DNA of 33,603 bases from a virus. Every line of letters starts with the position of its first letter. Within the stretch, counting starts at the first letter, position 1. The DNA lies in IMG/VR virus record IMGVR_UViG_3300000893_000055, positions 1-33,603 of that record. One strand, 5' to 3'. The translations under genes and the position numbers were made by a program. A model generated the notes under the pieces. That model saw only the letters and a program-made list of their open reading frames with translations. It made no database searches and was not told where the DNA came from. Positions 1-33,603 of the stretch are shown in pieces.

Positions 1-157
1 GATTACCTGGCGGGCCTTGTGAACCTGCGCTTCCGGCTGAACCTGCCGGTCCTGTTGGACCTGGAACTCCAGGCGGCCCCACTATTTCTACGCCAGGATC
101 AAGGACATACTTGAGTCCATCCCAACGGACATAACCTGGCTTTAAAATGCTTCCCAT
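1..157 (-). CDS. Collagen-like repeat protein, N-terminal part (runs off the left edge)
   Basis: An open frame starts with ATG at 157 and runs off the window after 52 codons. AGGAGA lies just upstream of the ATG at normal spacing, which supports this start. The first 27 or so residues are non-repetitive (beginning MGSILKPGYVRWDG). From about residue 28 the chain becomes Gly-X-Y triplets rich in Pro, Ala and Ser (GPP, GVP, GPT, GPA, GSA). Collagen-like stalks are known in phage tail fibres and other virion appendages, where they trimerise into rods. The role here is inferred, because the C-terminal domain that would identify the fibre is outside the window. It is the last gene in the leftward series and follows the kinase at 206-757 after a 48-base gap. 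Confidence 0.8.
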   Translation of the reverse strand, partial: MGSILKPGYVRWDGLKYVLDPGVEIVGPPGVPGPTGPAGSAGSAGSQGPPGN

Positions 158-205
158 GTATCTCCTAGACTACTTTTCTAAGAGAATACCAGACTTTTAG
201 TATAT

Positions 206-757
206 TTACTTGGATAAGGCCAAGACCGAATTAATCAGTCTTACACGCTCTTGCATGTTATCCATATTAATTTGGAAATGGGGAAGTTGCCACATCTCCA
301 ACATGAACTTGACCATGGCATCGATTGCCACCACGCCATCCCATGTTAAACTTTCTCGCACCCCGTCTGCCTTCAGGGTTGCCTTGGAGGGGCGAACGAA
401 AAATATAAATACTCCTGGCTGCCTCAGCGTGGCCAAATAGGACTCCAGCTCGGTCGAGTGTATGAGGCTGGGCAAAATGGCGGTGTGTTGGGCAGCATAA
501 GCCAAACAGTCGAAACTCCTATCTGAAACGAAATTATCTTTCTTTTCCTGTTCCTCTTGGATCTGACGATGGAAAATCTGTTTCTGGTAATCATTGACCA
601 GGCCCATGTCATAGCGAAGGGAATCTAGGTGAAGCTCCTTTTCAGAGAGGACAGCTCGGGCCACCTCTGTAATCATGGGAAGCTGATATTGTTCAGACAC
701 GTATCTTGCACAGGTAGTTTTACCCGTTGAATGAGCACCAATGAAATATACTCGCAT
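206..757 (-). CDS. P-loop kinase/ATPase, AAA_28 (NadR-like) type
   Basis: This 183-residue protein has a Walker A motif, GAHSTGKTT, at residues 7-15. It also has an EVARAVL segment near 31 and DRSFDCLAYA at 79-88. A Walker-B-like hydrophobic strand (FIFFVRPS) near 117-124 precedes a DGVRE lid-like segment at 131-135. This order matches the AAA_28/NadR kinase group, whose members phosphorylate nucleosides, nicotinamide riboside or related small molecules. The substrate cannot be told from sequence. I chose ATG at 757 because GAGG sits five bases before it; an in-frame GTG at 763 lies inside that ribosome-binding site. It follows the 56-residue gene at 765-935 by seven bases, so the two are probably co-translated. 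A thymidylate-kinase-like activity is an alternative reading, given the ribonucleotide reductase in the same block. Confidence 0.75.
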   Translation of the reverse strand: MRVYFIGAHSTGKTTCARYVSEQYQLPMITEVARAVLSEKELHLDSLRYDMGLVNDYQKQIFHRQIQEEQEKKDNFVSDRSFDCLAYAAQHTAILPSLIHSTELESYLATLRQPGVFIFFVRPSKATLKADGVRESLTWDGVVAIDAMVKFMLEMWQLPHFQINMDNMQERVRLINSVLALSK

Positions 758-16660: not shown

Positions 16661-17629
16661 TCACTTCAGAAACCATTGGTTATCCATGTACCAGTGGACC
16701 GTCTCTGCAATGCCTTCTTTGAACTTATAGGCCGGTTTCCAGCCTAGCTGTTGAATCTTATGAGTATCTACCGAATACCTAAAGTCATGGCCGCCTCTTG
16801 GGTCTGGGATAAATGAAATTAAATCATGTCCTTTGCCGATGGCGTTGCATACTGCCTGAATGGTTTCCAGGTTGGTGAATTCTTGATGAGCTGAAATGTT
16901 ATAAACCTGATTAGGCTCGCCCTTATCTAAGATGGTCATAATGGCTGAACAGTTATCGCCTACATAGGTCCAATCCCTAATCTGCTTCCCCTCTCCGTAT
17001 AGAGGTATTTTCTGCCCCTGTAGCACACATTTTATAGCCTTTGGGAGGAGCTTTTCGGGTTGCTGCCAGGGGCCATAGTTATTGCTGCTCCTGGTAATGT
17101 TATAAATTAACCCATGCGTAGTATGGGCTGCTTTTACCAGTAGCTCTCCCGCCGCTTTGGTAGCGGAATAGGGGTTTCTAGGGTCTAAAGGAGACTCCTC
17201 GGTCCAGGCAGCGTCTTTTTCGCTGGTAAGCTGGCCATACACCTCATCTGTGGAAATGTAGATAAGGCGCTTTACTTTGTGTTTGAGGCAGGCATTGATA
17301 ATGACCTGGGTACCCAACACATTGGAGGTAACGAAAGAATTGGGATCCTTGAGAGAAGAGTCTACGAAGGATTCGGCTGCCCCATGGATAACGATGTCTG
17401 GATGCTCAAACTTGAAGATAGTATCAATGACATGGTTGTCACGAATATCGGCTGGATAGAACTTGTGGTTCTGATTCCAGTACATAGAATTAGTCTCATT
17501 GAAGTTCACGCGGTCAATGCTGACGAAATCTAGCTTTTCTTCTCTTGTCTTTCGGCTGTAGATAGCTCGGCGTATAAAGTTGCCAAAGATGAACCCACAA
17601 GAACCAGTGATGAGTACTTTCTTACTCAT
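16661..17629 (-). CDS. rmlB: dTDP-glucose 4,6-dehydratase-like (RmlB) SDR enzyme
   Basis: This 322-residue extended SDR enzyme should act on a nucleotide sugar. The NAD-binding GSCGFIFGN sits at 9-17, STDEVYG at 126-132 with the D128-E129 acid pair that marks dehydratases, Y154-x3-K158 in PYSATKAAGE, RSSNNYGP at 180-187 and RDWTYVGD at 218-225. These motifs fit dTDP-D-glucose 4,6-dehydratase better than a simple 4-epimerase. The usual GxxGFIG reads GFIF-G, a small change in the turn. No rmlA, rmlC or rmlD lies in the window, so it may feed a host pathway or only make the 4-keto sugar. GGAGA precedes the ATG. Its neighbours on one side are glycosyltransferases. Confidence 0.85.
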   Translation of the reverse strand: MSKKVLITGSCGFIFGNFIRRAIYSRKTREEKLDFVSIDRVNFNETNSMYWNQNHKFYPADIRDNHVIDTIFKFEHPDIVIHGAAESFVDSSLKDPNSFVTSNVLGTQVIINACLKHKVKRLIYISTDEVYGQLTSEKDAAWTEESPLDPRNPYSATKAAGELLVKAAHTTHGLIYNITRSSNNYGPWQQPEKLLPKAIKCVLQGQKIPLYGEGKQIRDWTYVGDNCSAIMTILDKGEPNQVYNISAHQEFTNLETIQAVCNAIGKGHDLISFIPDPRGGHDFRYSVDTHKIQQLGWKPAYKFKEGIAETVHWYMDNQWFLK

Positions 17630-17641
17630 TTTTCTCCAAAC

Positions 17642-18469
17642 TTACTCTCGATAGAGATTGTATCTTGAATCCTGAGTATATATATCCTTGTCGATCACAT
17701 ATCTACCTTCCCACTTATCAAAAAGGTGTTTGATATTGTGATTCATGAACAATCTATTAGCAGGATTCTTTTTGAGAGAAGCACTCTCCTCATGGAAGAT
17801 ATTAGTCTTACCACAATATACAATTTTCTTCTCTTGATTATTCTTAATTGAGAGACACAAATCTACATCATCAAAGGCCCAATGGTATTCTTCATCCATT
17901 CCTTTGATACCAGACTTATTCTTATCGCAGATGTTTCTAAAGTTCTCGGCTTTGGTTAGGAGAACCGCACCAGTCACTACTTGGAAGAGGCGATTTCTTT
18001 CCGCATTAGCGTCAGTCTTCTCTCCTGCACGGAAGTGATTGGGGGCGCGGAATCTTGGATCAAAGATAACCCCGGCATGCTGTAAAGTATCCGTATTAGT
18101 GTAGAGAAGTCTGGCTCCTACCACCCCAACTTTAGGATCCTTATCGATAATCTCCTTCATGGCTTTGATGGATGTAGTATCATTGAATACCACATCATTG
18201 TTCATCAGGAGTACGTAGTCATTGTCGGCAGGTGAAGCTACGTTGAAGAGGAAGTTCATACCCTCAGAAAAGTTCTGGCGATTATCCTTGTATGGAATGA
18301 CTTTAGTATTCCCACCCCAAGAATTGGCCACGGCAACCGTGTCATCCTTGGAAGCGTTGTCTTTGATGAGCCAGGTATAATCTAACCCAGCAAGAGCCGG
18401 CAAAAGACTTTCCTTTAATTTGGTTAGTTTATCACAAGCATTCCAAGTCAAAGTGAGAACGTATAGCAT
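17642..18469 (-). CDS. Glycosyltransferase family 2 (rhamnosyltransferase-like)
   Basis: This 275-residue GT-A enzyme opens with YVLTLTWNACDKL. It then has IKDNASKDDT at 35-44, MNNDVVF at 89-95 (the NND metal-binding variant of DxD) and a FDDVDLCLSI segment at 199-208 that plays the role of the catalytic ED motif. H226 follows in IFHEES. This matches GT2 enzymes that transfer rhamnose or similar sugars, which is consistent with the RmlB-like neighbour. Acceptor and linkage are unknown. It shares one base with the upstream gene stop (TAATG). Confidence 0.87.
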   Translation of the reverse strand: MLYVLTLTWNACDKLTKLKESLLPALAGLDYTWLIKDNASKDDTVAVANSWGGNTKVIPYKDNRQNFSEGMNFLFNVASPADNDYVLLMNNDVVFNDTTSIKAMKEIIDKDPKVGVVGARLLYTNTDTLQHAGVIFDPRFRAPNHFRAGEKTDANAERNRLFQVVTGAVLLTKAENFRNICDKNKSGIKGMDEEYHWAFDDVDLCLSIKNNQEKKIVYCGKTNIFHEESASLKKNPANRLFMNHNIKHLFDKWEGRYVIDKDIYTQDSRYNLYRE

Positions 18470-19473
18470 TAAAAACCTACCCTAAGACCCGCGTTGATAC
18501 CCACGTTACCATCAGTTCCTACAGTTAGAGATGGGCCAATATAAGTGTTGTTCGCAAGTGGTGAAAAGAGATTCTTACCAATGTTGTAGGCCACTGGTGT
18601 TATGACCAATTGAGGTCTCTGACTGACAGTCCCATAACCAACACCCACTTCAAGAACAGAGAAGTCTGGTGTCGTTTTGAATTGACCGTAAGACATGATA
18701 CCTAGATTGACGCTGGGAGTGAATTCGCCTCGAACTGGATTGAGCCCAACTCCACCATCCAGGCCGACCAAGAGTCTTGGATTCCAAAAGCTAAACTTAG
18801 CCCCTGGGACCTCTTGCTTGGTACTACCAGTCTTGATAGGAATTTCGTATGGCTTTCCATCCACCACAACATTGAACTTGTTGTAGAAATACTGTCGTTG
18901 ATTCTCGTCAACTCCCACAACCGTATCCACCTGATAATCACGTTGGCTAATGTGGACATCCCATGGGTTCTGCTGCCATGCACTAAATCCAACCGTGCCT
19001 AGAGGTACCTTGATAGTTCCGAAGTCTTCATTCAAAGCTAGATTTTGTTGAGTCTTCTGATAGCCGAATGGGTCTGTGTTTGGACAGGTGCCGTTTACAC
19101 ACGGAACTGGTGGTGGAGGATTTGGATTGCTTGGGCCAGTATTGGTGCTTGGGATACCGCTACCATTCTGGGCATTGCTGTTGGTAGTAATGACGTTGAT
19201 GGAAGCTACCTGAGCGCCTAGCTTGTCCAAGTTGTCTTGGATAGCTTTTAGATTGATCCCATTAGTCTTAGCAAAGGCGTCAATATCTTCTTTAGTAGCA
19301 TATTGACTCTGGCTACGTACAATCCCATCAATCAATTGTTGTTGAGCAACAAGTGAAGTTTGAATTTGTGTTTGCTGGGCTTTAATTTGGATTTGATTGT
19401 AGATGATAAATGCTAGAGCACCGCAGGTGAGAATACTAGCTATTGCAATTATAATCTTGGTTTGGAGAGTCAT
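18469..19473 (-). CDS. Membrane-anchored coiled-coil protein with beta-rich C-terminus
   Basis: This 334-residue protein has a single N-terminal membrane segment (about 6-25, IIIAIASILTCGALAFIIY). A Gln-rich coiled coil follows to about 95, then a Ser/Asn/Pro linker containing PNPPPP and a CVNGTC pair. The last 180 residues are beta-rich with alternating hydrophobic strands (RLLVGLDGGVGLNP, PSVNLGIMSYG, LEVGVGYGTVS, PSLTVGTDGNVG) and end in RVGF. A terminal Phe after such strands recalls outer-membrane barrels. A spanin or envelope-bridging role is possible but inferred. I start at ATG 19473, which has AAGGTG upstream and does not overlap the neighbouring gene. Confidence 0.78.
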   Translation of the reverse strand: MTLQTKIIIAIASILTCGALAFIIYNQIQIKAQQTQIQTSLVAQQQLIDGIVRSQSQYATKEDIDAFAKTNGINLKAIQDNLDKLGAQVASINVITTNSNAQNGSGIPSTNTGPSNPNPPPPVPCVNGTCPNTDPFGYQKTQQNLALNEDFGTIKVPLGTVGFSAWQQNPWDVHISQRDYQVDTVVGVDENQRQYFYNKFNVVVDGKPYEIPIKTGSTKQEVPGAKFSFWNPRLLVGLDGGVGLNPVRGEFTPSVNLGIMSYGQFKTTPDFSVLEVGVGYGTVSQRPQLVITPVAYNIGKNLFSPLANNTYIGPSLTVGTDGNVGINAGLRVGF

Positions 19474-19481
19474 GAGACACC

Positions 19482-20303
19482 TTACTTCTGGATCGTGGGA
19501 CACCAGTGGATTGTTCTGCCTTCTGGGGTGGCCTCTTTAATTATTTGGTTTCCCAACGGGTCTTTCTTTTGGCCATAAACCTTAAACTTCGAGGAATACT
19601 TACCTTCTTCACCATACGCAGTTTTGTATGTATGAATAGTAGCGCCTTGGTGCTGGTAAGAGTCATTCATAACGGTAACTAGCGATTGACACAATAAGTG
19701 GAATTCGCTTTCATTCAACAAGTTGCCCTGACGCCAAGGTGAAATCTGAGATAGATATAACGCCTCGGCACGAATGTAGTTGCCCACGCCAGCAAAGATC
19801 CACTGATCCATCAAAAGTTGCGCAATCGGCTTGGAACTTTTGAGCACTTGCTTCTTGAGGTGCGGCAACCAATCCTCCAGTTTGTCTTGGAGCGGGTCCC
19901 ATCCTAAATCTGCCCATTTCAACTGGAAGATGGCATGCCTTTCAGCAAAACTAACTGTCCCAAAATGTCTTGGGTCATTAAAGTATATCTGGCTGCCGTC
20001 TTCAAATTCAACAACAAAACAAGGATGCTTGCCCTTGGTCGGAGACCATTGACCAGTCATCCCGAATGTATTCATCAAGTAATGGTAATCAGTAAATCTC
20101 CAATACAGGAACTTACCTTTGACTTGAACATCTTCTACTTTACAGTTACCTGTTTTAACAAACTCCATGAACTTATCAAATCCATTTGGATTCTGATATT
20201 TGTATCGACTATTTTCAGTCGCATAAGCATTCTTTACGAACTTTCCAACTACGAGTGGTCTAATCAAATCAGCGCTTAGTTTGACTTCGGGACCTTCGGG
20301 CAT
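19482..20303 (-). CDS. Fpg/Nei-family DNA glycosylase with a zincless finger
   Basis: This 273-residue base-excision enzyme should remove oxidised bases and nick the abasic site. It begins MPEGPEVKLSAD with catalytic P2 and E3; K64 sits in VKGKFLYW, NDPRHFG at 109-115 and the H2TH motif GVGNYIRAEALY at 172-183. The C-terminal finger (240-273) keeps KVYG and R263 (GRTIHWC) but has only one (C268) of the four zinc cysteines. This resembles the zincless finger of NEIL1 and some giant-virus and plant enzymes. ATG at 20303 is chosen because Pro2 must follow the initiator; a GTG at 20309 would mask it. It lies between two glycosyltransferase genes, an odd setting for a repair gene. Confidence 0.9.
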   Translation of the reverse strand: MPEGPEVKLSADLIRPLVVGKFVKNAYATENSRYKYQNPNGFDKFMEFVKTGNCKVEDVQVKGKFLYWRFTDYHYLMNTFGMTGQWSPTKGKHPCFVVEFEDGSQIYFNDPRHFGTVSFAERHAIFQLKWADLGWDPLQDKLEDWLPHLKKQVLKSSKPIAQLLMDQWIFAGVGNYIRAEALYLSQISPWRQGNLLNESEFHLLCQSLVTVMNDSYQHQGATIHTYKTAYGEEGKYSSKFKVYGQKKDPLGNQIIKEATPEGRTIHWCPTIQK

Positions 20304-20305
20304 GT

Positions 20306-20974
20306 TCACTTACTCCACTTCTTAACGAAGATTTGTCTGGCTTTCTGATACAAGGCGTGTGTGTTGAGTTGTTTACTAGTCTGTTTACCAAAATGAACTA
20401 CTGGAACTTCTACTACTTCAAATGGAATCCCAAGCTTGCGGGCTCGGAAAGAAAGATCGGTGTCCTCAAAGTAGGCCAACCCAAACTCTTCTGAGAACGG
20501 ACCAACATAATCATTGATGATGAGCATCTCCCAAAGATCCTTAGAAGAAGCTAAACACCATCCACTCATGTATGAGTTACCGGAGAGTACTTTATTGGCT
20601 TCTTGGACGAAACTGAGATTGCTATCCAATTGTCCCATGGTTGGGCCGACTAGGCTGGAGGGGCAGCGCTCCACTAGAGGAGCAGTCCAATTTGTATGAT
20701 TGGATTTTACGCGAATATCGTTGTTCAAAAACAAGACGTTCGGGGCCGTTGCCTTAGCATAACCAATGTTGCACGCCTTGGCAAATCCAAAGTTTTCTGG
20801 ATTGCGCACGTAAACTAGGCGCGTGTTCTTTTCTAATGCTTCCTGCGTCTCATCTGTACTATGGTTATCTACAATAATGATCTCATGATCTTCTGGTAAC
20901 TTGGAGAGGTCTTCCACGCATGCCTTGGTGAAATTATACTTGTTCCAAACCGGAATAACAATACTAAGTTTCAT
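20306..20974 (-). CDS. Glycosyltransferase family 2
   Basis: This 222-residue GT-A enzyme opens with KLSIVIPVWNKYNFTKACV. It then has IIIVDNHSTDET at 32-43, NFGFAKACNIGY at 61-72, FLNNDIRV at 82-89 with the NND metal site, and FEDTDLSFRA at 169-178 with the catalytic ED pair. H194 follows in VVHFG. It is clearly GT2, but shorter than the enzyme at 17642 and not an obvious duplicate of it. Acceptor and sugar are unknown. The start overlaps the preceding small gene as ATGA. Confidence 0.87.
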   Translation of the reverse strand: MKLSIVIPVWNKYNFTKACVEDLSKLPEDHEIIIVDNHSTDETQEALEKNTRLVYVRNPENFGFAKACNIGYAKATAPNVLFLNNDIRVKSNHTNWTAPLVERCPSSLVGPTMGQLDSNLSFVQEANKVLSGNSYMSGWCLASSKDLWEMLIINDYVGPFSEEFGLAYFEDTDLSFRARKLGIPFEVVEVPVVHFGKQTSKQLNTHALYQKARQIFVKKWSK

Positions 20975-21150
20975 TTGATTACCACACTCTTCTTAGCCGC
21001 AGCAATACCACGTGGGTTAATAATTCCCATCCCAATAGATTCTCTAACAGTCCACCCCACAGTCTGCGCTCTCTTGCGGGCCGCGACTATGTTGCCAATA
21101 TCTCCATTATCGTCATGGATAATGATCTCATGCTTAAACTTCTGAGTCAT
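20971..21150 (-). CDS. Small unknown protein, 59 residues
   Basis: A frame from ATG at 21150 to TGA at 20971-20973 encodes 59 residues beginning MTQKFKHEIIIHDDNGDIG. It continues with a basic helix (NIVAARKRAQTVGW) and a Gly/Ile-rich middle (SIGMGIINPRGIAAAKK). GAGAG precedes the ATG. Its start lies inside the end of the 62-residue gene (17-base overlap), and its stop overlaps the glycosyltransferase start as ATGA. No family is recognised. Confidence 0.65.
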   Translation of the reverse strand: MTQKFKHEIIIHDDNGDIGNIVAARKRAQTVGWTVRESIGMGIINPRGIAAAKKSVVIK

Positions 21151-21322
21151 CTAACGCTCTCAATTCATTCAAACTAATACGCGAAACAAACTCTGCTTCT
21201 TTTGCAGCAATAGCTCGTTGGATCATTCTAGAACGACGGGAGCTACCATCTTTGTAGGTATTTCCTTCATCGTCTGTAATTATGTACATAGTGCTATAAT
21301 CTTTTCGGCCGCTTTGGTCCAT
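21134..21322 (-). CDS. Small unknown protein, 62 residues
   Basis: The product begins MDQSGRKDYSTMYIITDDEG and continues with SSRRSRMIQRAIAAKEAEF, a basic helix, then an acidic C-terminus. The ATG at 21322 has GGAG at good spacing but lies 43 bases inside the upstream GT4 gene. A second in-frame ATG at 21289 has no ribosome-binding site. Either start leaves most of the frame intact. No family is recognised. Confidence 0.6.
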   Translation of the reverse strand: MDQSGRKDYSTMYIITDDEGNTYKDGSSRRSRMIQRAIAAKEAEFVSRISLNELRALDDSEV

Positions 21323-22416
21323 GTATACTCCGGTAGAAGCTCTTGCATCTTAGGCGAAAACTTGGCTAGATAATCATCATAGTTCTTGACCACATCCCTT
21401 AGCTTCTCGGCACATTGAGTAGTGTCAGGATCAAAACACTTAGCGTATGGAGATGGTTCCCAATACTGCATTTTGTAATCAGCCCTAATCTCTTTCCCAT
21501 CAATGAGAATGGAATTCTCATCATTCATGTAGTCAAGCTGCCCGCCATAACGAGGAGCAATAACAATCTTGTTGGCTGCAAAGCCTTCTAGACCGGGCAT
21601 CCAGAAGCACTCGGCATTAGCCATGGTTAGAACGATATCGCAGGAATTGTAGAGAGTTTCAATATCTACAATGAACTTATCCACGATTTCAATTTCCCCA
21701 TGGTTTTTAAACTCTTCGTTCCAACGGTGGAGAAGATCACCAACATTAACATCAAATCCGGGCTGTGGACTCTTGCGAGCCACCTTGAGTACCAGGCACA
21801 CATCGTCCTTCTTAGTAAACGCTTTACCATATGACCTCAACAATCCAGGTAAGTTCTTTCTCAAATGAGGCTGTGCAATGTTGCACAGTATCTTGTACTT
21901 CTTTTGAGTCTTGAGGGGGTACTTACCAAGGTTTTGAAATCGTTCCAGATAAATTCCGTGAGGAACCACCACTTGATGGTCAGCCGGCATGCCATTGTCC
22001 GTGAATATCTTCTTGGAAAACTGGGAAGACGGAAGTACCTTATCCACACACTTGTAGTACTTGGCAAAGGCTGTAGGCAATACAGTGGTTTCGTAGTTCC
22101 AAATTCCAAATCTATTCTTCTCACCACGAATGAAGTAATTGCAGAAATTTCTCAAAGCCGTGTACGACAACTGCATGTCGTATTGTTTATCCAGTTTGGA
22201 GGCCACCATCTCCACGAAGTTATCGGGCGTGATGGTATCGTTTTCAGTGACACATCCTCGGAGGTTCGATTTGAGATCCTCGGGAAAATGGGTAAGGCCA
22301 TTTGTGGAAAATAAATCCACATCATGCCCCATTCTAATAAACTCTCGTGAGAGGTTTTGAGCTACAATTGACCAGCTATGGTTCTTACCAAGAAATCCAA
22401 ACCAACATACTTTCAT
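21280..22416 (-). CDS. Glycosyltransferase, GT4-like (GT-B fold)
   Basis: This 378-residue protein opens with KVCWFGFLGKNHSWSIVAQNLS, a GT-B N-terminal strand and helix. The linker region reads VLPSSQFSKKIF and VVVPHGI near 127-155. The C-terminal half has CNIAQPHLRKNLPGLL (R186-K187 pair) and ECFWMPGLEGFA at 269-280, which fits the family E-x7-E type motif for nucleotide-sugar binding. This is the plan of GT4 enzymes such as those building capsule or O-antigen. Donor and acceptor are unknown. An AGGGG ribosome-binding site precedes the ATG. It begins 13 bases after the fibre-like gene and may share its transcript. Confidence 0.87.
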   Translation of the reverse strand: MKVCWFGFLGKNHSWSIVAQNLSREFIRMGHDVDLFSTNGLTHFPEDLKSNLRGCVTENDTITPDNFVEMVASKLDKQYDMQLSYTALRNFCNYFIRGEKNRFGIWNYETTVLPTAFAKYYKCVDKVLPSSQFSKKIFTDNGMPADHQVVVPHGIYLERFQNLGKYPLKTQKKYKILCNIAQPHLRKNLPGLLRSYGKAFTKKDDVCLVLKVARKSPQPGFDVNVGDLLHRWNEEFKNHGEIEIVDKFIVDIETLYNSCDIVLTMANAECFWMPGLEGFAANKIVIAPRYGGQLDYMNDENSILIDGKEIRADYKMQYWEPSPYAKCFDPDTTQCAEKLRDVVKNYDDYLAKFSPKMQELLPEYTWTKAAEKIIALCT

Positions 22417-22429
22417 AACCCCTACTATA

Positions 22430-25400
22430 TCAGGATGGGGTTGGGCTTGGCAAGAATGGTACGAAGTTATAGCTGTGAGAGGTTGGAGGGGCGATAGCAG
22501 TGGAACTGTTCAAGGTCAAGTTATTGTAAGTCATGACCAATCTTGCCATCTTGCAAATAGCTACGTCAGTACCTATGGAGGTTGCTAAACTCAGATGAAC
22601 TTCATACACCATTGGGGTGGCGCCCTGGGAACCAGGCAATAGCTCACTCTTAATATCCTGTGAGGCTACATACGTTGCCGCAGGATTATTGGTACTGATA
22701 ATCGTACTTGGGCCAGAAGCTAAGTTCAAATATGTATTAGTATTGACATTAAATAGTTGTATCTGAGCTGCATTGGCTGAATCATTACATTCTATAATCG
22801 CTTCTAAAGTAATAGACTCTAAACCTTCTAGAATGTATTGATCAAAGTTAAAGACCATAGCCCCAATAGCCATTGGCACATTGGAATCATTGGATTGTAC
22901 TCCAGCCACACCGTAGATATAGACTGGGTTTTTGTAATAGAAGCTTGGATCTAGGAATCCATATCCATCAGTCTTTGGAACACGGTCGTTATCCACCGAA
23001 CCTAGCGAGAAGGCGATAACACCAATCAAGTCATACACGAATTGATAGCTCACACCGCTACCATTGCTGGTAAGCACGGTTCCAACTGGCCCAACTGTGT
23101 TGAGTCCGGTACCACCATGAACCACCGGCAATATACCTGTCACGTCATTCTGCAAATCTACCAAAGCAGACGGGCCACCATCATTAGCTCCGCTGAAGAC
23201 GCTAATCAACTTGAGCATGTTTTGAACCTTAGTAGCATCTACGAAGATTGGGGAGTTGTTGAATCCGCCTTTCTTCAAGAATACATTGACCTGAACTTTG
23301 GTGCTCAAGGTGCGAAGTACTGGATCCTGATATAGGTTACTGAAATTGAGGGTCAACAATCCGGTGCTGTAATCGATATTGACGCCCATCTTGCCATCGA
23401 CAATTGGGCCGGTATAACCATCAAGGCTGTATCCGTCTATGTTTGGTGAGAATGATTGTACCGCTACAGAAAATCTTACTTGGTCATTGGCCAATGCATC
23501 TTTGTGAACATAAGAGCAATCAGCGAATCTCATAGATGGGAAGCCAAGCTTAGTGGCGCCAGTTCCAGTATAGTCCACGATGAAGTCGCTCATGATGTCA
23601 ATGGTGCGCTCTGAACCAAATAGTCCATCAGGAATTTCTAGTACCACAGTACCTACTTCAAAGTCTACCTTATAGAATTCTCCATCAGGTCTTTGAATTT
23701 CTCCATTACCAATAATCAAATTGTTTGGAACGAAGAAGTCCACACGCCCAGTCTCTACCTCTTGCGGAACAGGGTAAACATTGCACTGAATACCTTCGAG
23801 CGTGCAGGAATGTAGCGGGGTATTAGTTTCAGAAGTAAAGGCAGCCGGTACAAGTCTCGACCTTGCGTTGGTTACAACCAGCGCCTCATCCCAAACAAGT
23901 TGTTTGGTAATGCTGATCGGAACTGGGAAGTTCAAGAAGTCGTGGTTGACAAAATAACCATCGTTATTGAAAATGTCCTGGGCCGGATGGGTGGTAGTTG
24001 CTCTAGTGTTAGTATTAACTACGTAGTCATCAGTTCTATCTACGAACTTCTCTAGTCTTAGTCTAATGACGTTGAACTTGGTGCCAATCTTAGTATAAGG
24101 ATTGGTAGAAGGGGCTGGATAGGTAGTTGTTGGAGCGGTACTGAACGGTTGACGCTCAATGTAGTTGTTGAGCAAATAACCATCAGCAAAGGTAATAGCA
24201 AAGTCACCATCGATATCTGCTCTAAGCAATTGACCAAGAGTGTCTCCTGTCAAATAGACCTTACGAAGTGTGAGAACGTCGGCTACCGAATCAATGCCTA
24301 CGATATCCCAACCGCCCCAGTTAGCCTCGCCAGCTCCATTGCTAAGAATAACCAACTTATAGGTGCTGAGACCAACGATAACGTCAAAGGTAACACTGGA
24401 GCTGGTAAACTGAGCCAGTCTTGGATCATTTGGATTGGCTACCAAGATACCATCAGTTCCTTGAGCAACTACAGACCCGGTGTTAGGATCGACTAGCTGG
24501 AAGGAAATGTTAAACAGATTACTAAATGGCTGAATAAGAGTATTGTAGCCATTAGTGAATGTGGTAGTAACAGTGTCAGTATTAATGACAGTATGAGCCG
24601 GTAAGCCTTGATTGAGGTTGTATCCTAGGAAACTGTTGAGTAGAGCTAGATCGTGTTCATCGACAATGCCATTGCCATCTACGTCTCCCACAATCATCGA
24701 ACAGAGTCTTGCGTCAGCAATTCTATATTGAGTGAATGGGGCAGCCACAGCATCAGGAACGATAAGGGCACCGACTAAATCTCCATTGAGAAGATTAGTG
24801 GCTAGACCACTAACAGAGCTATTGAATCTAATTGTATCGGTAGGATCGTCAACAATTCTGATGAGTAACTCATCCTCGGCCATAGTGGCTGAGAACAATA
24901 CGGAATTGATGTTAGCCTGTCCTGGATCAAAAAACTTGATGTTACGGTCAGAGATGGCACCCAGGATAAGGGGCTCAGAAGTAGTTTCTAGATTAGTGAT
25001 ATCGATGGTGTTCATCAAGGTGACTTGAGGAACAAACTGTTGTCTCGACATAACTGGATTGCCAGTTCTTTGGTCGGCTACTGGTGTAGTGTCAGCGGTA
25101 ACCGCTTGCATAACCGCTCTGAAAACATCGTTTCCAACAAATTGCTTCTGTCCAAAAGAGTAATCTACAGTTGCTTGTGAGGCTTCGTCAACAGTGGTCT
25201 TAGGAATGATGACGCCGTTACCAGCATCGTATGCTTGACCGTCAGCTATCTTAGCAGCATCGGTCCAAATCTTGAACCACAAATCTTGAGATGGAACGTC
25301 TACCCACAAACTTCCAGTGAAAGTAGTTACTCTAGAATTGTCGATTAAATCGCCACCTGTGCTTACCAAAATATCACATTGGTTGGCAGCGCCAGCTCTC

Positions 25401-26470
25401 TTGATAGCAATAGCGTAGTACTGGCCTGGCTCCATAACGTTACCACCGGCTACTGGGCTATTGCTGAAAACAAAGTCTACAGGTTGTGGAACAGAGTCCA
25501 ACAGAATACCTGCCGCTTGCAGGCTTGCATAGTTGTAGCTGATCTGCCCAACTGGGATGTTAGAGGGCGAGAAGTCAATTGGTAGGTTAGGGGCGATATC
25601 GGTTGGGCAATCCAAACTGGTTTGCAATGGATAAATGCTGACTACGATATCACCGGCCCAAGCTAGATTGTTCTCTTGACCTACGCTGGTGTTCCTAACC
25701 GACAACAACATAGTAACTTTTTGAACGTTATTAGTAGTGGCCTGGAACTTTTGACCGATCTGTGTAGTGACATCTCCATTGAGCAAAGGAATAACGTCCT
25801 GTGGTACCGTGAAGATATTGAGGGTATCAATGTTGTACAGCGGCATGGCTGCTTGCAACATGGCCGTCAAAGACAATTGGCTAATGGAAAAGTCAAGGAA
25901 AAAATCACGGAAGAATAGATTTGGCTGTTGATCCTGGGCCAACATGATGGCATCTCTGGAAACCATCATCGGGTTAGCTTCGGTAATGGTAATCCTTCCA
26001 CCCAGGTTGAAGGAAAGATCAGGATCTCCAATAAAGTCATTGAAAAGGATAACTAGAATTTCGGAAAAGTGTTTCTTGCTGACTTGAACTTCGTTAGTTC
26101 TAAAATAGAAAATCTCGTACTGAAGGTTGCTCTGGAAATCTAAACCAATAATACCAACCTTGACGGTCTTGCGGCCGGAAACTCTGGAGCCCGTGAGTGA
26201 AATGGCAAGCTGATTTCCGAGATTGTTGTCAGAAGGCTGAGCCTGGGGGCTGATAGCCTTACCGTCGAGAAACCCTTCAGCTAGGCTAGAATCGAAAAGT
26301 ACCTGCTCCACCAAAGTTTCGGGTAGAACGCCATCACCAATGTGGTTATTGATGATAGAAGATTCTATCGTAATATTGGCTGTTTGCTCAGTATTTAGGT
26401 CGGTTTCATCGACTTGTTGAGCGTCAAACCAATTTGGTCTTATTACAGATACAGGGGAACGTTTTGTCAT
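22430..26470 (-). CDS. Large virion protein with tail-fibre motif and two dockerin-like loops
   Basis: This 1,346-residue protein is beta-rich and Asn/Thr/Val-rich, like phage tail fibres and baseplate spikes. The N-terminus (MTKRSPVSVIRPNWFDAQQV) resembles attachment ends of large fibre proteins. Residues 595-607 read GDVDGNGIVDEHD, and residues 752-763 read DIDGDFAITFAD. Both follow the dockerin/EF-like pattern D-x-D/N-x-D/N with a final Asp at position 12, and both are followed by a short helix (LALLNSFLG and GYLLNNYIE). Residues 1114-1122 read LPVVHGGTG, a motif common in tail fibres, and the C-terminal 200 residues are Val/Gly-rich. A receptor-binding role is inferred. The ribosome-binding site is weak. 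Confidence 0.88.
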   Translation of the reverse strand: MTKRSPVSVIRPNWFDAQQVDETDLNTEQTANITIESSIINNHIGDGVLPETLVEQVLFDSSLAEGFLDGKAISPQAQPSDNNLGNQLAISLTGSRVSGRKTVKVGIIGLDFQSNLQYEIFYFRTNEVQVSKKHFSEILVILFNDFIGDPDLSFNLGGRITITEANPMMVSRDAIMLAQDQQPNLFFRDFFLDFSISQLSLTAMLQAAMPLYNIDTLNIFTVPQDVIPLLNGDVTTQIGQKFQATTNNVQKVTMLLSVRNTSVGQENNLAWAGDIVVSIYPLQTSLDCPTDIAPNLPIDFSPSNIPVGQISYNYASLQAAGILLDSVPQPVDFVFSNSPVAGGNVMEPGQYYAIAIKRAGAANQCDILVSTGGDLIDNSRVTTFTGSLWVDVPSQDLWFKIWTDAAKIADGQAYDAGNGVIIPKTTVDEASQATVDYSFGQKQFVGNDVFRAVMQAVTADTTPVADQRTGNPVMSRQQFVPQVTLMNTIDITNLETTSEPLILGAISDRNIKFFDPGQANINSVLFSATMAEDELLIRIVDDPTDTIRFNSSVSGLATNLLNGDLVGALIVPDAVAAPFTQYRIADARLCSMIVGDVDGNGIVDEHDLALLNSFLGYNLNQGLPAHTVINTDTVTTTFTNGYNTLIQPFSNLFNISFQLVDPNTGSVVAQGTDGILVANPNDPRLAQFTSSSVTFDVIVGLSTYKLVILSNGAGEANWGGWDIVGIDSVADVLTLRKVYLTGDTLGQLLRADIDGDFAITFADGYLLNNYIERQPFSTAPTTTYPAPSTNPYTKIGTKFNVIRLRLEKFVDRTDDYVVNTNTRATTTHPAQDIFNNDGYFVNHDFLNFPVPISITKQLVWDEALVVTNARSRLVPAAFTSETNTPLHSCTLEGIQCNVYPVPQEVETGRVDFFVPNNLIIGNGEIQRPDGEFYKVDFEVGTVVLEIPDGLFGSERTIDIMSDFIVDYTGTGATKLGFPSMRFADCSYVHKDALANDQVRFSVAVQSFSPNIDGYSLDGYTGPIVDGKMGVNIDYSTGLLTLNFSNLYQDPVLRTLSTKVQVNVFLKKGGFNNSPIFVDATKVQNMLKLISVFSGANDGGPSALVDLQNDVTGILPVVHGGTGLNTVGPVGTVLTSNGSGVSYQFVYDLIGVIAFSLGSVDNDRVPKTDGYGFLDPSFYYKNPVYIYGVAGVQSNDSNVPMAIGAMVFNFDQYILEGLESITLEAIIECNDSANAAQIQLFNVNTNTYLNLASGPSTIISTNNPAATYVASQDIKSELLPGSQGATPMVYEVHLSLATSIGTDVAICKMARLVMTYNNLTLNSSTAIAPPTSHSYNFVPFLPSPTPS

Positions 26471-26480
26471 TGTTTTTCAC

Positions 26481-29400
26481 TCACGTAGTATACTGAATAA
26501 ACACCCTAGAGGTAGCTGGCTTCAGAGTTTTGATTAAGGCTTCGAGTATTTCTTTTACCTTGGAACTACTACTAACTATACCAAAAGAATCGAAAATATT
26601 AACCGTAAAGTCGAAAGAACCTACTCCTCTATCGGTCAAAATCGAAAAATCAGTGTTGAGAGTAATTAGCTTATCAAAATCCATCAAATATGTGGTGTAG
26701 AGGTCTTGGGTCACCGGGAACAAAATATCCAGATTAGAACCCCAGTTGACATCAATTGCCTCGCCATAAGGCGCATAGATTGGTCTGGAAATGGAACTAA
26801 TTCTGAAATTATCCATCAGGGTGAAGGCTGCTCCAGCCCCTCTAAAATCTGTTCCAATGAATAGCTCATTGATTGGGTCTTTGAAATTAATAGAGCCCAA
26901 CAGGCTATAGCCATCGCCAATGGAGACGGAGCCCATAACATTTGGATACTTGCCGAAGACCAATCCAGAGCCAAATAGAACGTCAGTGTACTGGTATCCG
27001 TCCAGGAAGAGCCTCATCTCATCATTGCCGAGGTGACCGTTGATTTTGTAGCTGGCCTTGACACGGTGCCAAGTGTTCTTGGCCCAACGAGTTGGGGCAC
27101 GAACTACGAAGTCTTGACCAGAAGCCGTAATAGCAAAGTTCATATAGCCCAAGACATCCTTGTAGACCGTAATACGATCACCCTGCAATCCAGATGGGAT
27201 GTAAGTAACTCGTACCTTGCAATTCTGGAAAGGCAGTCTTCTATTCAATCTAATTACTTGTGTATTTATTTGAGTATTTTTGTTATTGGTAGAAACATAA
27301 GTAACAACCAAGTGAGCATGATTAATTGGAAGCAACCTACCTAGATAGATAGTTCTGCCATCGGTACCTATTGTACCATTGGCAAAGTAGTCAGTTCCGC
27401 TCAGGTCTCCTGCAATTTTGACAGTCACTACCTGTAGAATTGGCTGAGTCACCATAACATGGGTGTTACCAATGCTGACGCTTTCCTCTTGGATAGCGTT
27501 TTTGGTATCGGTCTCTATCTTGCCGCCTACGAAGTAATCGATGTTTTGGTCGCCTGAGTGCAGCTTGACACTAATGATTTCTTTGGCGGGGGCGGACAGC
27601 TTGACAGCCACATTGCTGACGCTAACTACTTCTTCTACAACAGCTCCAAACGCATCAAAATAAAATCTATTTTGAGGATCGTTAGCTGTATCGTAAAGGG
27701 GGCTCATCCAAAATTCAATGGTGCCTTCTCTGCTGTTATCCATTATTCCATCATTTGGAACGACAATAGGTTTGTCTAGCATTACCACGCTAGCACCGAA
27801 GTTGTCATTGACGGCCCAAGAAGACTGAAAATGTCCCTTGACGCTAGTAGAGTTGGTATAGAACGGAGCGCTATTGGAGAATGGGAAGGAATCGAAGTCT
27901 ATGAAGACTAGAACTTGGTGATCTGGTTTAACTGCCTTCAAAGAGTTAAAATCTTTAGTAATAGAACGAGTATTGACTGCTACGGTCTCGCCCACTCTGG
28001 TATCCGTCAACATAATGGAATAGACGATCGCTTGATCCAGAATGGCATTGGCCGGATTGTTTCCTTCGAAATCTGTTCCAAAATAGATGTTGGAGTCGAG
28101 AGGGTCAAACTTAATAGAGGTATAGGTCGAATATTCTAACTCGTAGAATCCTCGGGTCAGGAACCAAGCTTGGGTTGGAAGCCAATTGCCTTCCAAAGTA
28201 AAGAATCCATTTTGCAATCCACTACGATAAGCGGTGGTATTTAGTACCTGGTAAATCCCATCAGTAAATGGTTGGAGTGGGAGCTGGAAGGCAGCGTAAG
28301 TAGACTTGACCAAAACTGAATGACGATCTGGTGAAACCCCTGTGATGGTATAGAATCCCGCCACATTTGGTGGGCTGTGAATTAACAAACAATTACCAAC
28401 ATCTGAATCACTGAATAGATTGTAACCATCTGTCAGAGTATATCCGTCAGTGCTGCTGAGAGTATAACCACCGCCAATATGGTAGCTGTATCTAACAACT
28501 GGAACCAAACCACTGAACTCGCTGTGAGTGATAGAGTATTTTTCTCTTAGTGTGATGGCCAAGGCATTTTTACTAGCATTGATTGGTTTAGCATTGACCT
28601 GGATGTAATTTACCTCTAGATATGGGTTAGCAAAATCTAATGTTCCATAATCTGTAAAGGTAATAGTCTCATTAACAGTGTAGATGCCTGTCAGACCGTT
28701 GAGTGTAACGGTAACTGGAGTAGAGAAATCCACATTGGTACCACTGATAGTTACGCTGACCGTTCTTCCATTCTGAGCATTAGTAGTACGTTCGCCTGGC
28801 AAATTGTTGGAGACGAAGACCCCACCTGTTAGGGTCGAGTTCTTAGGCCCAATGACGGTGTTCGGAATAATGATTTTGGTGATGTTTACCTCATCCAAAG
28901 AAATTGGAGCTGGCATTTGGGTCATCAGGACATTTTCGTTCTCTTGGCTCCATACGTAATATTGCTTCTTGACAGAGCGGCTGCTCACGCCCAATGTACG
29001 AACCAAAATCAAATCACCAGCAAACACTCCGTTAGAGATGGTAAGGATATTGTTGAAATTGTTATCCTTGCTAATAGAGTAATCCGGGTGGAGGGCTCTC
29101 ACACCTGGGATTTCATTTTCCTGATTGGAATAAACCTGGAAGGTTACATTGCTAAAGTTGGCTGGAAGCGGATCGGTTACTGTCACGCTGTTCCCAGATA
29201 CTTGAACTATAGTATACGCTACTGGAAGTCCTGGTTCGTCAATTCTTATGAGGTAGCCTGGCTTGACACCGAGAGTAGTGAAATTGCTTCCTGTCGAAGT
29301 GACAGCCGGAGACCCTGCAATGCCGGCCAAGTCAGTACCAGTAGTAAAAGTATGGATAGTGGTAACTGCAATGTTCGGTGCAATATCGATATCAGAAGTA

Positions 29401-32400
29401 ATAGTAAAGCTAGTTCTGTTGACCGAGAATCTACCATTACCATTGACGCTGACAGGCATAGGTTCACTGAGATGTAATGTTTGACCAGTTACATTCGATA
29501 TAGTATATCCTGTAGGATCAAATCCCATTTCATCAATGTAAAGAATGTCTCCTGGGAAAATCTGATAGGCTGAGAATGTAATACTAGAAGAGACTACATT
29601 AGAACCTTGTATGGTGGTCAAGTCATCTGATCCCACAATATCTCTATTGACTAATCCGGCAATTTCTTCTGGGTTGACTGTTCTAAACTTCTCATGCAGA
29701 TATGGCTGTAGCTTCTGCGAATACTTCATGATGTTTGGAACTTCCAAACCATCAATGAACAAATGGATCTCATCTCTGTTATTGCGAGTGTTTAATTTCC
29801 AAGAGGCAGCAATGTGGTGAGGTTGGTTGATTCGCCATCCCGAGACATCAGCACTGACAGAGTATTGCGTTTTTCTGTTATCAAAAACTCTAAAATTGAG
29901 ATATCCGCTAACATCCTTGTAGAGAGAAATTCTGCTATTGTCTACATCTTCACCCAGATCCAAGAAATAGTGTTCCAAATCGGAAATGAAGGTCACCCCT
30001 TGATCGATGCGTCCTCCTCCCGTAATGGTTAGGGAAAGGCTGCTAGTTCCAGTAAAGGTACGTAGGTTAGGCGGCTTGATTGGAGTAAGGGATTTGACAT
30101 CGTAGAATTTACCAGTGGAGGTAACTTTGATGCTGTATGTATGGTTATTTGGCGCCACATACCCATCAATGACTTCAATGTACCAACGATTGAAAGCTCC
30201 TGAAATATCCTTATCGTAGTAGATAAAGATACCATCTTTGTTGGTGTTGGGTTTGCCCTGGACAGCCGAGTTCTTATCCAAAGTAAATGGACCCGAGGCA
30301 GTCGGATGCATCTCCCCAGCTCCCATGAAAACAAAGGATGGACTAATAGCATAACCGTCTCTCAAGATGGTAAAGGTCAAGGAAGCGTCATTGTCCAAAC
30401 CGTTCCATTGAGGAATAACCCATTGTTCGAAGGTTCCCTCTTCCAATCTCAAATTGGAATTGATTGGCAGGGTAATGGATTGGCCTACAGTATCTACTAG
30501 AACCCCATCCCCATATTTAGCTGATAGAAGTTGGAATGATCCAGTGGTCTCTACCGACTCTGGATATAGTAAGCTGCTTCCTAGGGACCAGGTTTCGAAA
30601 GCCGATTCTATAATCTCTGGTTCAACATGGGAGATAACTTGTCCAATATTCTTAATAGCCGCTACCGTTGGTCCTTGAATAAAGGAAGTCATGGCTGCTA
30701 TCAGAGCGTCTCTGTACCTCTCACGATCTAAAGTGATATCTAGGGTGGCTAATTCTGGAACGTTTACCAATGTACCAAAGTTGGATACCAGGGCGTCTCT
30801 CAAAGCTCCAACTTTGTAGGTAACGTAGTAGGTAGTGCCTGCGGGCACGGTAGTACTCTTCCTAAAGTCTAGAGCGTTGTTGCCGTATTCATAGCTAACG
30901 ATGATTTCATCTGCTAGATAAGTGTAGTCAACAAAGTAGTCTCCTCTGTTGTAATCTACTACTACACGTGCCAGCGGAATAAGGGCAAAGGAATAGTTGA
31001 TGACCGCCAAATCACCAGCTTGTGGTGAATTGATTCCTGGTAGGATAAGCTTGAGCGGGTTACCTGGGATCACAGTTCCATTAGCATTCCAGAGTGGCTG
31101 TGAATCAGATACTCTAGTTACTGAGAACGTGTATTGAACCTCTGTAGAGAGGTACGGAATGTTCTCATTGAGTAGAACGTAATAGTTGGCGCCATCGAAA
31201 TGGACCGATTCAAAAGATTGTTTAGAAATGGTTCCAACCGAAATGGTCGATCCAACACTGGTGCTTGCCTGAGCGAAATTGAGAGGGGACGTGCTATTCA
31301 CCAAGTCATCATAGGCATAAACGGACCTGACATATTTTACTTGGTTAGTAACGCTTGGTACGAACACTGCCTCTACGAAGGCTCCCACATTGCCATTGAA
31401 AAATTGATATGGCGCACCAACGAAGCCATTAAGAAACGATTCATCCACCGAATCAAACTCATCTGGCAAAATAGTATTGTCAGTAAATGTGGTGTAAGTG
31501 AATGTCTTGTTCTTAGGCTCCAATACGCTGATTCGATAATACAGATCATCCACACTAATTATGTGAGAGTTTTCTGTTTGTATAAAGGAACTCTTATAAG
31601 AGGCGCTTCCGATGCTGGTGTTCTGATTATTATCCACTGCACAGTAGACGACACCATTCGCGTAATCTACGGTGTATTCTCCTACATTTAGTAAGCGATC
31701 GATATTCTCGCTCTCAGTGAAAAGAGTATTGAACCACTTCTCGGCCACAAACACATTACCATCAGAGAACATCAAGCTGGTATTAAAAGAGGCTGCCAAA
31801 CCATCTTCTGTACCTGAGCAGATTCTATTATTGGCTAGGTTGATCTTAAAGACTTTCAATGAACTAATGTTGGTAAGAGAATTGGCCACGAACAACAGTT
31901 CATTAGTGACGTTTTGGAAAGTCGCTCTTTCTCCTGTATCGGCAATAATACGGGGAGCCGCATTATATCTAAAATAGACCTTGTTATCGTTCCATCTATC
32001 TAGAGTGTAGATTTCCCCCGATGTTTCATTGTAAATACGAAATACATTAGTAATAGGAGATTGAGTGGTAACCAAAGCATTGAGAGCTACTAGATTATTG
32101 CCAATGCGCTCTTCCAGAACTTCGTTGTGTGGATCAGAAACATAATCCACGCCAGGAACAAATACTTCTTCGTACTTGTAAACTACGGTACCAGGCTCGT
32201 TTACTAGGCTGCCTAGGGGGAGAGCAACCAAATCCCTCAAATCATTATCATAAACGTAATCTACTTCAGATTTGTAGACTAGTTGGTAGTAGTAAGTGGC
32301 TAGCGGTGGAATAGGGCCTGTACCATCATTGGTAGTGTCGGCACCATACACGTACACAGTACCGTTAGGATAATCTATAGCGTACTGTCCAGGTGCGAAT

Positions 32401-33603
32401 GGCAATCCATTCAGTCTAAATGGAATCTCGTATAGGAAAGCTGGATGAGGGGCTCCGATATTGGTATTAGGATTGGTAAATACTACACCGCCCAGAGTAG
32501 GAATGTTGTTGCTAGCATCTGTGATTGGAGCGTGCTTTAGATTGAAAATATTGATGATAGGCGGTAGCACTTCTCTAACGGATTGTTCAGTGGTGTAGAG
32601 CTGAACAGTAGTGCCATCTATTACCCTACCCAGATCCTTATATTCATACTGAACGTCTATCTTGAAAATGTTGTTGATATCAAATAGCGGATCGCTCAGA
32701 ATAGCTTCGTTGAGACGGACTTGATTGTCAGCCAGCAGTAGATAGTCAGAGGCGAAATCCTGATCGTATCTGGAATCCAATAGTGAGTATCCTAGTTTAA
32801 CAATATCGTAGTTATAAACTGGATTAGGTGTCAATAGAGTAAATACAATGCTATTTACTCTAGTAACCGGAGAGTGGCTTAGATTAAATGTTAGATTGTT
32901 GACATTGAATGTGCCAGGCTGGTCTGTAGAACTGAGAGTCAGACTTTCAGTCCAGAAAGTACGCTGTAGTGTGACGGGAAAATATGGGAAGCTGTCAAAT
33001 TGGAAAGTGGCAGTAGCGTTAGCGCCAGTTGGGGTCAATCCCACCCTCACAATCTCATAGGCTGCTTCTTCATTCAATCTATCATAAGCCGCTTCACCAC
33101 GTATCTGTTGCTCATCTACAATTGTAAAAGAAAGATAGTTTTCGTTCTTAACTTGCCTAATATCGTAGAGGGCTCTAACTAATATAGTAGATAGGGCTTG
33201 AACGTATCTGCTGACCACAGTTTGGTCAGTGTCAATATTATAGATGTTATCTTTGAGAAAAGAGGTAAGGAATTGCTTGACGGGGTTGTCAGGGTCGAGC
33301 GGACCTTGGATGAGGAATTTATTAGAAACCCCATCTTCAGAAATCTTAGTGTCCCCGTTGGTCGAGACGAACGGATTTTGTGGGGTCGATTGGAACTGAA
33401 GAAAATAGCTTGCTAGCTCTCCCAATGGAGTGCAAGTAATAGACAAGACAGCGCCACTAACCGATACCTTCATTACTTGAGGGTCGGGTACATTGATGGT
33501 GTCTGAAAATATGGAAACGTTAGCGGGTACTAGATTAGGAGTGATGTTCTCAGCAAAGGTTACATCAATGCTGGAGGGGCTTAAAACCTGTACGTTAACG
33601 AAT
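26481..33603 (-). CDS. Giant virion protein with duplicated LamG-like domains (5' end outside window)
   Basis: This frame ends at 26481 and stays open to the right edge, giving at least 2,373 residues. The ATG at 33473 has no ribosome-binding site, and 43 upstream codons are open and protein-like (VNVQVLSPSSIDVTFAENIT), so it is probably internal. Numbering below is from that Met. Two LamG/ConA-like regions lie near 1000-1260 and 1915-2230, sharing YKDVSGYLNF versus YKDVLGYMNF and HLFIDG versus RLFLDG. Two tandem beta modules (about 1288-1355 and 1386-1455) share PGD/Y-x-L-x-IDE-x-G and YTI segments. VDY-x-NG-type strands recur near 360, 595 and 840. Such proteins build tails, baseplates or fibres; LamG folds usually bind glycans. 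The exact location in the virion is unknown. Confidence 0.88.
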   Translation of the reverse strand, partial: FVNVQVLSPSSIDVTFAENITPNLVPANVSIFSDTINVPDPQVMKVSVSGAVLSITCTPLGELASYFLQFQSTPQNPFVSTNGDTKISEDGVSNKFLIQGPLDPDNPVKQFLTSFLKDNIYNIDTDQTVVSRYVQALSTILVRALYDIRQVKNENYLSFTIVDEQQIRGEAAYDRLNEEAAYEIVRVGLTPTGANATATFQFDSFPYFPVTLQRTFWTESLTLSSTDQPGTFNVNNLTFNLSHSPVTRVNSIVFTLLTPNPVYNYDIVKLGYSLLDSRYDQDFASDYLLLADNQVRLNEAILSDPLFDINNIFKIDVQYEYKDLGRVIDGTTVQLYTTEQSVREVLPPIINIFNLKHAPITDASNNIPTLGGVVFTNPNTNIGAPHPAFLYEIPFRLNGLPFAPGQYAIDYPNGTVYVYGADTTNDGTGPIPPLATYYYQLVYKSEVDYVYDNDLRDLVALPLGSLVNEPGTVVYKYEEVFVPGVDYVSDPHNEVLEERIGNNLVALNALVTTQSPITNVFRIYNETSGEIYTLDRWNDNKVYFRYNAAPRIIADTGERATFQNVTNELLFVANSLTNISSLKVFKINLANNRICSGTEDGLAASFNTSLMFSDGNVFVAEKWFNTLFTESENIDRLLNVGEYTVDYANGVVYCAVDNNQNTSIGSASYKSSFIQTENSHIISVDDLYYRISVLEPKNKTFTYTTFTDNTILPDEFDSVDESFLNGFVGAPYQFFNGNVGAFVEAVFVPSVTNQVKYVRSVYAYDDLVNSTSPLNFAQASTSVGSTISVGTISKQSFESVHFDGANYYVLLNENIPYLSTEVQYTFSVTRVSDSQPLWNANGTVIPGNPLKLILPGINSPQAGDLAVINYSFALIPLARVVVDYNRGDYFVDYTYLADEIIVSYEYGNNALDFRKSTTVPAGTTYYVTYKVGALRDALVSNFGTLVNVPELATLDITLDRERYRDALIAAMTSFIQGPTVAAIKNIGQVISHVEPEIIESAFETWSLGSSLLYPESVETTGSFQLLSAKYGDGVLVDTVGQSITLPINSNLRLEEGTFEQWVIPQWNGLDNDASLTFTILRDGYAISPSFVFMGAGEMHPTASGPFTLDKNSAVQGKPNTNKDGIFIYYDKDISGAFNRWYIEVIDGYVAPNNHTYSIKVTSTGKFYDVKSLTPIKPPNLRTFTGTSSLSLTITGGGRIDQGVTFISDLEHYFLDLGEDVDNSRISLYKDVSGYLNFRVFDNRKTQYSVSADVSGWRINQPHHIAASWKLNTRNNRDEIHLFIDGLEVPNIMKYSQKLQPYLHEKFRTVNPEEIAGLVNRDIVGSDDLTTIQGSNVVSSSITFSAYQIFPGDILYIDEMGFDPTGYTISNVTGQTLHLSEPMPVSVNGNGRFSVNRTSFTITSDIDIAPNIAVTTIHTFTTGTDLAGIAGSPAVTSTGSNFTTLGVKPGYLIRIDEPGLPVAYTIVQVSGNSVTVTDPLPANFSNVTFQVYSNQENEIPGVRALHPDYSISKDNNFNNILTISNGVFAGDLILVRTLGVSSRSVKKQYYVWSQENENVLMTQMPAPISLDEVNITKIIIPNTVIGPKNSTLTGGVFVSNNLPGERTTNAQNGRTVSVTISGTNVDFSTPVTVTLNGLTGIYTVNETITFTDYGTLDFANPYLEVNYIQVNAKPINASKNALAITLREKYSITHSEFSGLVPVVRYSYHIGGGYTLSSTDGYTLTDGYNLFSDSDVGNCLLIHSPPNVAGFYTITGVSPDRHSVLVKSTYAAFQLPLQPFTDGIYQVLNTTAYRSGLQNGFFTLEGNWLPTQAWFLTRGFYELEYSTYTSIKFDPLDSNIYFGTDFEGNNPANAILDQAIVYSIMLTDTRVGETVAVNTRSITKDFNSLKAVKPDHQVLVFIDFDSFPFSNSAPFYTNSTSVKGHFQSSWAVNDNFGASVVMLDKPIVVPNDGIMDNSREGTIEFWMSPLYDTANDPQNRFYFDAFGAVVEEVVSVSNVAVKLSAPAKEIISVKLHSGDQNIDYFVGGKIETDTKNAIQEESVSIGNTHVMVTQPILQVVTVKIAGDLSGTDYFANGTIGTDGRTIYLGRLLPINHAHLVVTYVSTNNKNTQINTQVIRLNRRLPFQNCKVRVTYIPSGLQGDRITVYKDVLGYMNFAITASGQDFVVRAPTRWAKNTWHRVKASYKINGHLGNDEMRLFLDGYQYTDVLFGSGLVFGKYPNVMGSVSIGDGYSLLGSINFKDPINELFIGTDFRGAGAAFTLMDNFRISSISRPIYAPYGEAIDVNWGSNLDILFPVTQDLYTTYLMDFDKLITLNTDFSILTDRGVGSFDFTVNIFDSFGIVSSSSKVKEILEALIKTLKPATSRVFIQYTT

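Follow-up and report, generated by a model that had tools for sequence, protein, structure and literature searches.

Dockerins are, to our knowledge, mainly known as the plugs of cellulosomes, and the role of those found elsewhere is seldom known. What would a dockerin do in a phage protein, and can it be a single module when its two calcium loops lie far apart in the chain? Both questions are raised by a 1,346-residue protein encoded in an IMG/VR virus record of 33,603 bases, which was analysed over its full length and is hereafter called the window. A sequence-only reading of this protein had proposed dockerin-type loops at residues 596-607 and 752-763, about 156 residues apart, as the two halves of a dockerin split by an inserted beta-rich domain. 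The features concerned are the following.

22430..26470, minus strand: whole open reading frame (ORF) of 1,346 aa, read as a baseplate/tail-fibre-type protein with a predicted discontinuous dockerin (ORF translation and relatives)
25250..25804, minus strand: CBM-like jelly roll, residues 223-407 (structural match to phi812 baseplate 9euj_G)
24692..24913, minus strand: predicted beta-rich segment before dockerin half 1, residues 520-593 (AlphaFold2 model)
24614..24697, minus strand: predicted dockerin half 1, calcium loop 1 and helix 1, residues 592-619 (profile, model and superposition)
24650..24685, minus strand: calcium loop 1, DVDGNGIVDEHD, residues 596-607 (pattern and conservation)
24248..24601, minus strand: predicted inserted beta-barrel of PilZ, split-barrel or trypsin-half type, residues 624-741 (model and structure search)
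24143..24247, minus strand: predicted dockerin half 2, helix 2, calcium loop 2 and helix 3, residues 742-776 (profile, model and superposition)
24182..24217, minus strand: calcium loop 2, DIDGDFAITFAD, residues 752-763 (pattern and conservation)
23105..23119, minus strand: HGGTG motif, residues 1118-1122 (alignment of relatives)
22433..23035, minus strand: exchangeable C-terminal tip, residues 1146-1346 (differing versions in relatives)
26481..33473, minus strand: upstream partner gene, 2,330 aa, adjoining the dockerin-protein gene in the relatives examined (ORF and relatives)

Exactly two dockerin-type calcium loops were found in the protein, at the residues proposed and with a D1-to-D1 spacing of 156, and each precedes a helix both in the sequence and in the model described below. 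A loop-plus-helix pattern modelled on dockerins, and composed with these two loops in view, matched twice in this protein but not at all in seven further large ORFs encoded in the window, with a mean of 0.0 matches per shuffle over 5,000 shuffles of the protein. Under a looser generic EF-loop pattern, two or more matches arose in only 0.34% of shuffles of the protein. The two-loop pattern is not a chance occurrence. Pfam Dockerin_1 was the sole significant Pfam family for the protein, scoring slightly below the 22.9-bit cut-off against the whole sequence (E 2.3e-4, 21.7 bits) and above it against residues 480-880 (E 1.3e-5, 25.7 bits), and it matched 24 of 25 family members at E ≤0.01; phmmer against PDB sequences returned dockerin matches at sub-threshold values only (E 0.17-0.89). 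In a profile search of 15 phage records, loop 1 fell on the N-terminal part of Dockerin_1 (mostly positions 1-24 or 1-26, once 2-42), and in many relatives loop 2 fell on positions 12-57, after loop 1 in order. Both loops, rather than only one, thus match dockerins, each on a different part of the profile and in the right order, which is the signature of a single Dockerin_1 profile broken by an insert.

An AlphaFold2 model of residues 480-880, built on an alignment of 25 sequences, reached a pLDDT of 93-96 across the dockerin and over the greater part of the insert. A further model, extended to residues 1-1145, was poor outside residues 520-860 (mean pLDDT 61.6) but gave about 88 for the dockerin. 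The Clostridium thermocellum dockerin 2ccl_B superposed (VIA-align) with 59 of its 62 residues at 1.9 Å and 34% identity, with a Z of 4.9 that is modest, the dockerin domain being small and the model long. The aligned range (model 113..296, that is, residues 592-775) spans the insert and, because the halves contain only 28 and 35 residues, 59 aligned residues require both of them. For scale, a natural dockerin of Ruminococcus flavefaciens compared with 2CCL gave Z 6.5, 1.44 Å and 26% identity over 61 residues (PMC5934362). The double dockerin 8x39 was aligned with the model as well (Z 6.1, 71 residues, 2.5 Å, 34% identity). These DALI-like alignments resolved the split dockerin where Foldseek had not; by itself, Foldseek aligned it badly, placing 8x39 at rank 31 with an rmsd of 17 Å, probably because the domain is discontinuous. 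In the predicted structure the halves pack as one three-helix module, and the helix at residues 742-751, directly upstream of loop 2, is the equivalent of dockerin helix 2, which would put the insert between helices 1 and 2. The model thus supports a single dockerin-fold module made of residues 592-619 and 742-776 and broken by a barrel of about 120 residues, with both loops placed in one dockerin rather than far apart. We infer the contacts between the halves from the superposition. The protein was modelled as a monomer, phage fibres are usually trimers, and the contacts in the phage protein could instead be formed between chains.

The insert itself (residues 624-741) was modelled as a beta-barrel, in keeping with the beta-rich domain proposed. 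Its best match was PilZ 2rde_A (Z 6.2, 3.4 Å over 94 residues), with flavin split-barrel and trypsin-like barrels scoring too close to PilZ for a family to be assigned. A precedent for insertion at the linker between helices 1 and 2 comes from an engineered dockerin, whose contour-length signature was measured to be the same after 16 residues, (GS)8, had been placed between these helices (PMC4728124).

Successive IMG/VR scans recovered 5, then 31, then 48 loci of this family, many of them on contigs of 200-481 kb and so in uncultivated jumbo phages. Both loops were kept in 47 of the 47 loci that cover the region, some near-identical and others down to 38% identity: in 45 by pattern and in the other two by alignment, loop 2 being DVSGDMVVNTAD in L081 and NIDGDFYIGPND in L105. 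Since the last IMG/VR scan and the genome-contig scan used patterns without the loops, loop retention there is not a product of how the loci were selected. The inter-loop spacing was 152-159 residues in most relatives and 141-181 overall, and no member without the insert, that is, with an unsplit dockerin, was detected among the 47 covering loci. Two scans of genome contigs yielded one relative, L105, whose 383-kb contig was assigned to a Chitinophagales genome bin, which weakly hints at a host in the Bacteroidota; this contig is phage-like within the Chitinophagales MAG, representing either a host hint or a binning error. A tblastn search of 50,697 INPHARED phage records found no match for the protein, its most distant relative or the 201-residue region, so no cultured phage with this protein is known from that set.

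Lone calcium sites are common in phage fibre proteins, and the 156 residues between the loops would also fit two independent EF- or dockerin-like loops, each bracing a local beta-domain with no single dockerin formed. We regard this as very unlikely given that both loops superpose jointly on one dockerin across the insert at 1.9 Å, divide the Dockerin_1 profile into its N- and C-terminal parts, and are kept together in every covering relative. More weight must be given, although it too is unlikely, to a true docking module, in which the split dockerin would bind a cohesin-like domain of another phage protein or of the host surface. The predicted dockerin fold and the conservation of the calcium loops are in its favour.

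Across 25 aligned relatives, D596, G601, D607, D752, D754, D756 and D763 were invariant, and the remaining ligand positions exchanged similar residues only (D/N at 598 and 600, mostly D at 604, T/S at 760). Hydrophobic helix positions were kept as well. These conserved ligand residues suggest that the module binds two Ca2+ ions. The most variable sites of the module include positions 10 and 11 in each half (2.5-2.9 bits, with only position 23 of loop 2 higher), and there was variation at 17 and 18 too (1.6-2.1 bits). All four are cohesin-contact positions, and 10 and 11 carry the Ser-Thr recognition code of C. thermocellum, a code placed at 11/12, with 18/19, when each F-hand is counted (PMC5772552, PMC4728124); where C. 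thermocellum has Ser-Thr, the window protein has E-H and F-A, and with these positions varying, the family holds no fixed recognition code, whether Ser-Thr or an equivalent. Nor did any cohesin match at E ≤1 in a Pfam search of 15 phage records, some of them incomplete. Both observations count against docking, although a divergent cohesin could escape Pfam, and conserved ligands beside a variable surface would also fit fast-changing partners. Some surface may indeed be used, since conservation in nearly all members extends past the calcium ligands to Y765 and R773, at positions 14 and 22 of loop 2. Position 6 of loop 2 (residue 757, 24200-24202) is Phe in place of the usual Gly and is invariant in the 25 aligned relatives, with other branches carrying Gly (L083), Leu (L075 and L084) or Met (L081). 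This Phe may alter the geometry of the second calcium site, and Phe757, Y765 and R773 may lie where the module touches the barrel or a second chain.

Selection in this family keeps the calcium-folded core and not a fixed docking face, and on this basis we consider the split dockerin, a two-calcium module with a barrel between helices 1 and 2, to be probably a calcium-locked joint in a baseplate or tail-fibre protein. The sequence-only reading had left the choice between a joint and a docking module; the joint fits better, whereas cohesin docking loses ground with its variable contact positions and the lack of a cohesin in the records searched. As we envisage it, two Ca2+ ions would fold and rigidify the dockerin module, the rigid module would hold the side barrel, and the beta domains on either side, in place along the fibre, and receptor choice would be carried by the swappable C-terminal tip rather than by the dockerin. 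Such a mechanical role is deduced from conservation and the predicted fold. The last strand of the beta-rich segment (residues 582-593) ends just upstream of loop 1 in the model, and the module may itself be nested in a beta-domain, with strands 582-593 and 798-808 of that domain on either side. Nesting of this kind is possible since the ends of a dockerin can lie close together, as in an intramolecular clasp (PMC5934362).

A related scheme turns the lock into a calcium switch, with the dockerin folding only at extracellular calcium and thereby changing the pose of the fibre, gating adsorption or triggering of the baseplate. Dockerins do fold in a calcium-dependent manner. Such folding (Adams et al. 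2005, as cited in PMC12484212), together with the location of the module in mid-protein between the conserved body of residues 1-1145 and the swappable tip, would suit a switch, but no sign of a second conformation was seen here, and the sequence data are compatible with a permanent lock too; we think a switch improbable. Also improbable is the broader proposal that a giant-phage lineage turned a cohesin plug into a domain-insertion joint of the tail apparatus, one that would sense calcium outside the cell and, ahead of infection, move the side barrel or the fibre tip to a new position. Of these readings, the permanent calcium-locked joint is the one that we prefer.

The genomic setting is that of a contractile tail. 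In the relative L012/L042, the tail sheath gene comes first, followed in turn by structural genes, a gp25-like baseplate gene, genes for a 910-aa and a 2,372-aa protein and the dockerin-protein gene, the sheath and baseplate genes of its locus L042 matching phrog_2839 (E 1.4e-10) and phrog_2669 (E 4.5e-9), respectively. Residues 223-407, in a part of the model where pLDDT is mostly 55-84, matched the phi812 baseplate protein 9euj_G with Z 13.0 and 2.9 Å over 144 residues. Taking the gene order together with this phi812-like N-terminal jelly roll and the swappable C-terminal tip, the 1,346-aa protein is most naturally read as belonging to the baseplate or a tail fibre of a contractile-tailed jumbo phage and as binding the receptor through an exchangeable tip. 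Its gene neighbourhood and fold similarity likewise suggest presence in the virion. The HGGTG motif recurs in phage tail-fibre shafts. Tips were compared over 22433-23119 and in L011, L013, L016-L018, L032, L033, L019, L021, L078, L083 and L105, and several unrelated versions follow the motif: tips of about 190-275 aa in one related group, one of about 65 aa ending in '...ASVQEALDRIAAAIG', and a different one in L033, with some members having no HGGTG. This variation looks like the exchange of receptor-tip modules.

The upstream partner protein is 2,330 aa long in the window and 2,371-2,390 aa in the relatives examined; neither Pfam nor PHROG gave a significant match to it, and INPHARED phages gave none at all. 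A possible calcium loop in its counterpart (L010/L012) was not conserved and was dropped as chance. Directly downstream of the dockerin-protein gene, at 16661-22416, lies a block of glycosyltransferase and sugar-epimerase genes, with similar-sized ORFs in the same place in relatives; this block might glycosylate the fibre. A PhuZ-like tubulin is encoded at 15277-16635 (phrog_4733, E 7.9e-9), for which tblastn against INPHARED phages found no match.

A fixed calcium core, an unfixed cohesin face and a whole domain between the halves suggest that a dockerin fold can be used as a calcium-dependent structural joint and nothing else, which offers a testable reason why calcium may be needed by some phages. 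A natural dockerin that tolerates a domain insert would also be useful to protein engineers. In the open-access literature searched, we found no paper describing a dockerin whose halves are separated by an entire domain, or a dockerin in this type of phage tail protein, and the mentions of phage dockerins that we found were a VvAW1 gene (BLASTP note) and HSE2 (fold-modelling match) only. An uncultured Caudovirales phage protein in BFVD/UniProt, A0A6J5RS54, is a homologue, with identities of 55% across the region and 60% across residues 1-1145, that is already named 'Dockerin domain-containing protein', although this is a database name only and no account of the split was found. The baseplate proteins of Staphylococcus phage phi812 (9euj_G, 9eui_Q and 9euf_0) share the jelly roll of residues 223-407 (Z 12.0-13.0) but have no match to the dockerin and its insert.

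Like a type I dockerin (PF00404, 2ccl_B), the phage module has two calcium-loop/F-hand halves in the same order and three predicted helices. Unlike it, a barrel of about 120 residues would lie between helices 1 and 2, so that the halves are not contiguous, whereas a type I dockerin is a single segment of about 60-70 residues; the phage module also differs in its variable cohesin-contact residues, the Phe at position 6 of loop 2, the lack of a detected cohesin and its occurrence in a phage tail-type protein. Inserts are known from the CttA XDoc and ScaA dockerins of R. flavefaciens, the three in CttA serving as structural buttresses for the adjacent module (PMC5934362, PMC4266597). Those inserts, of 12-13 residues where lengths are given, lie within the second calcium loop, whereas the phage protein carries a whole predicted domain between its halves and leaves both loops intact.
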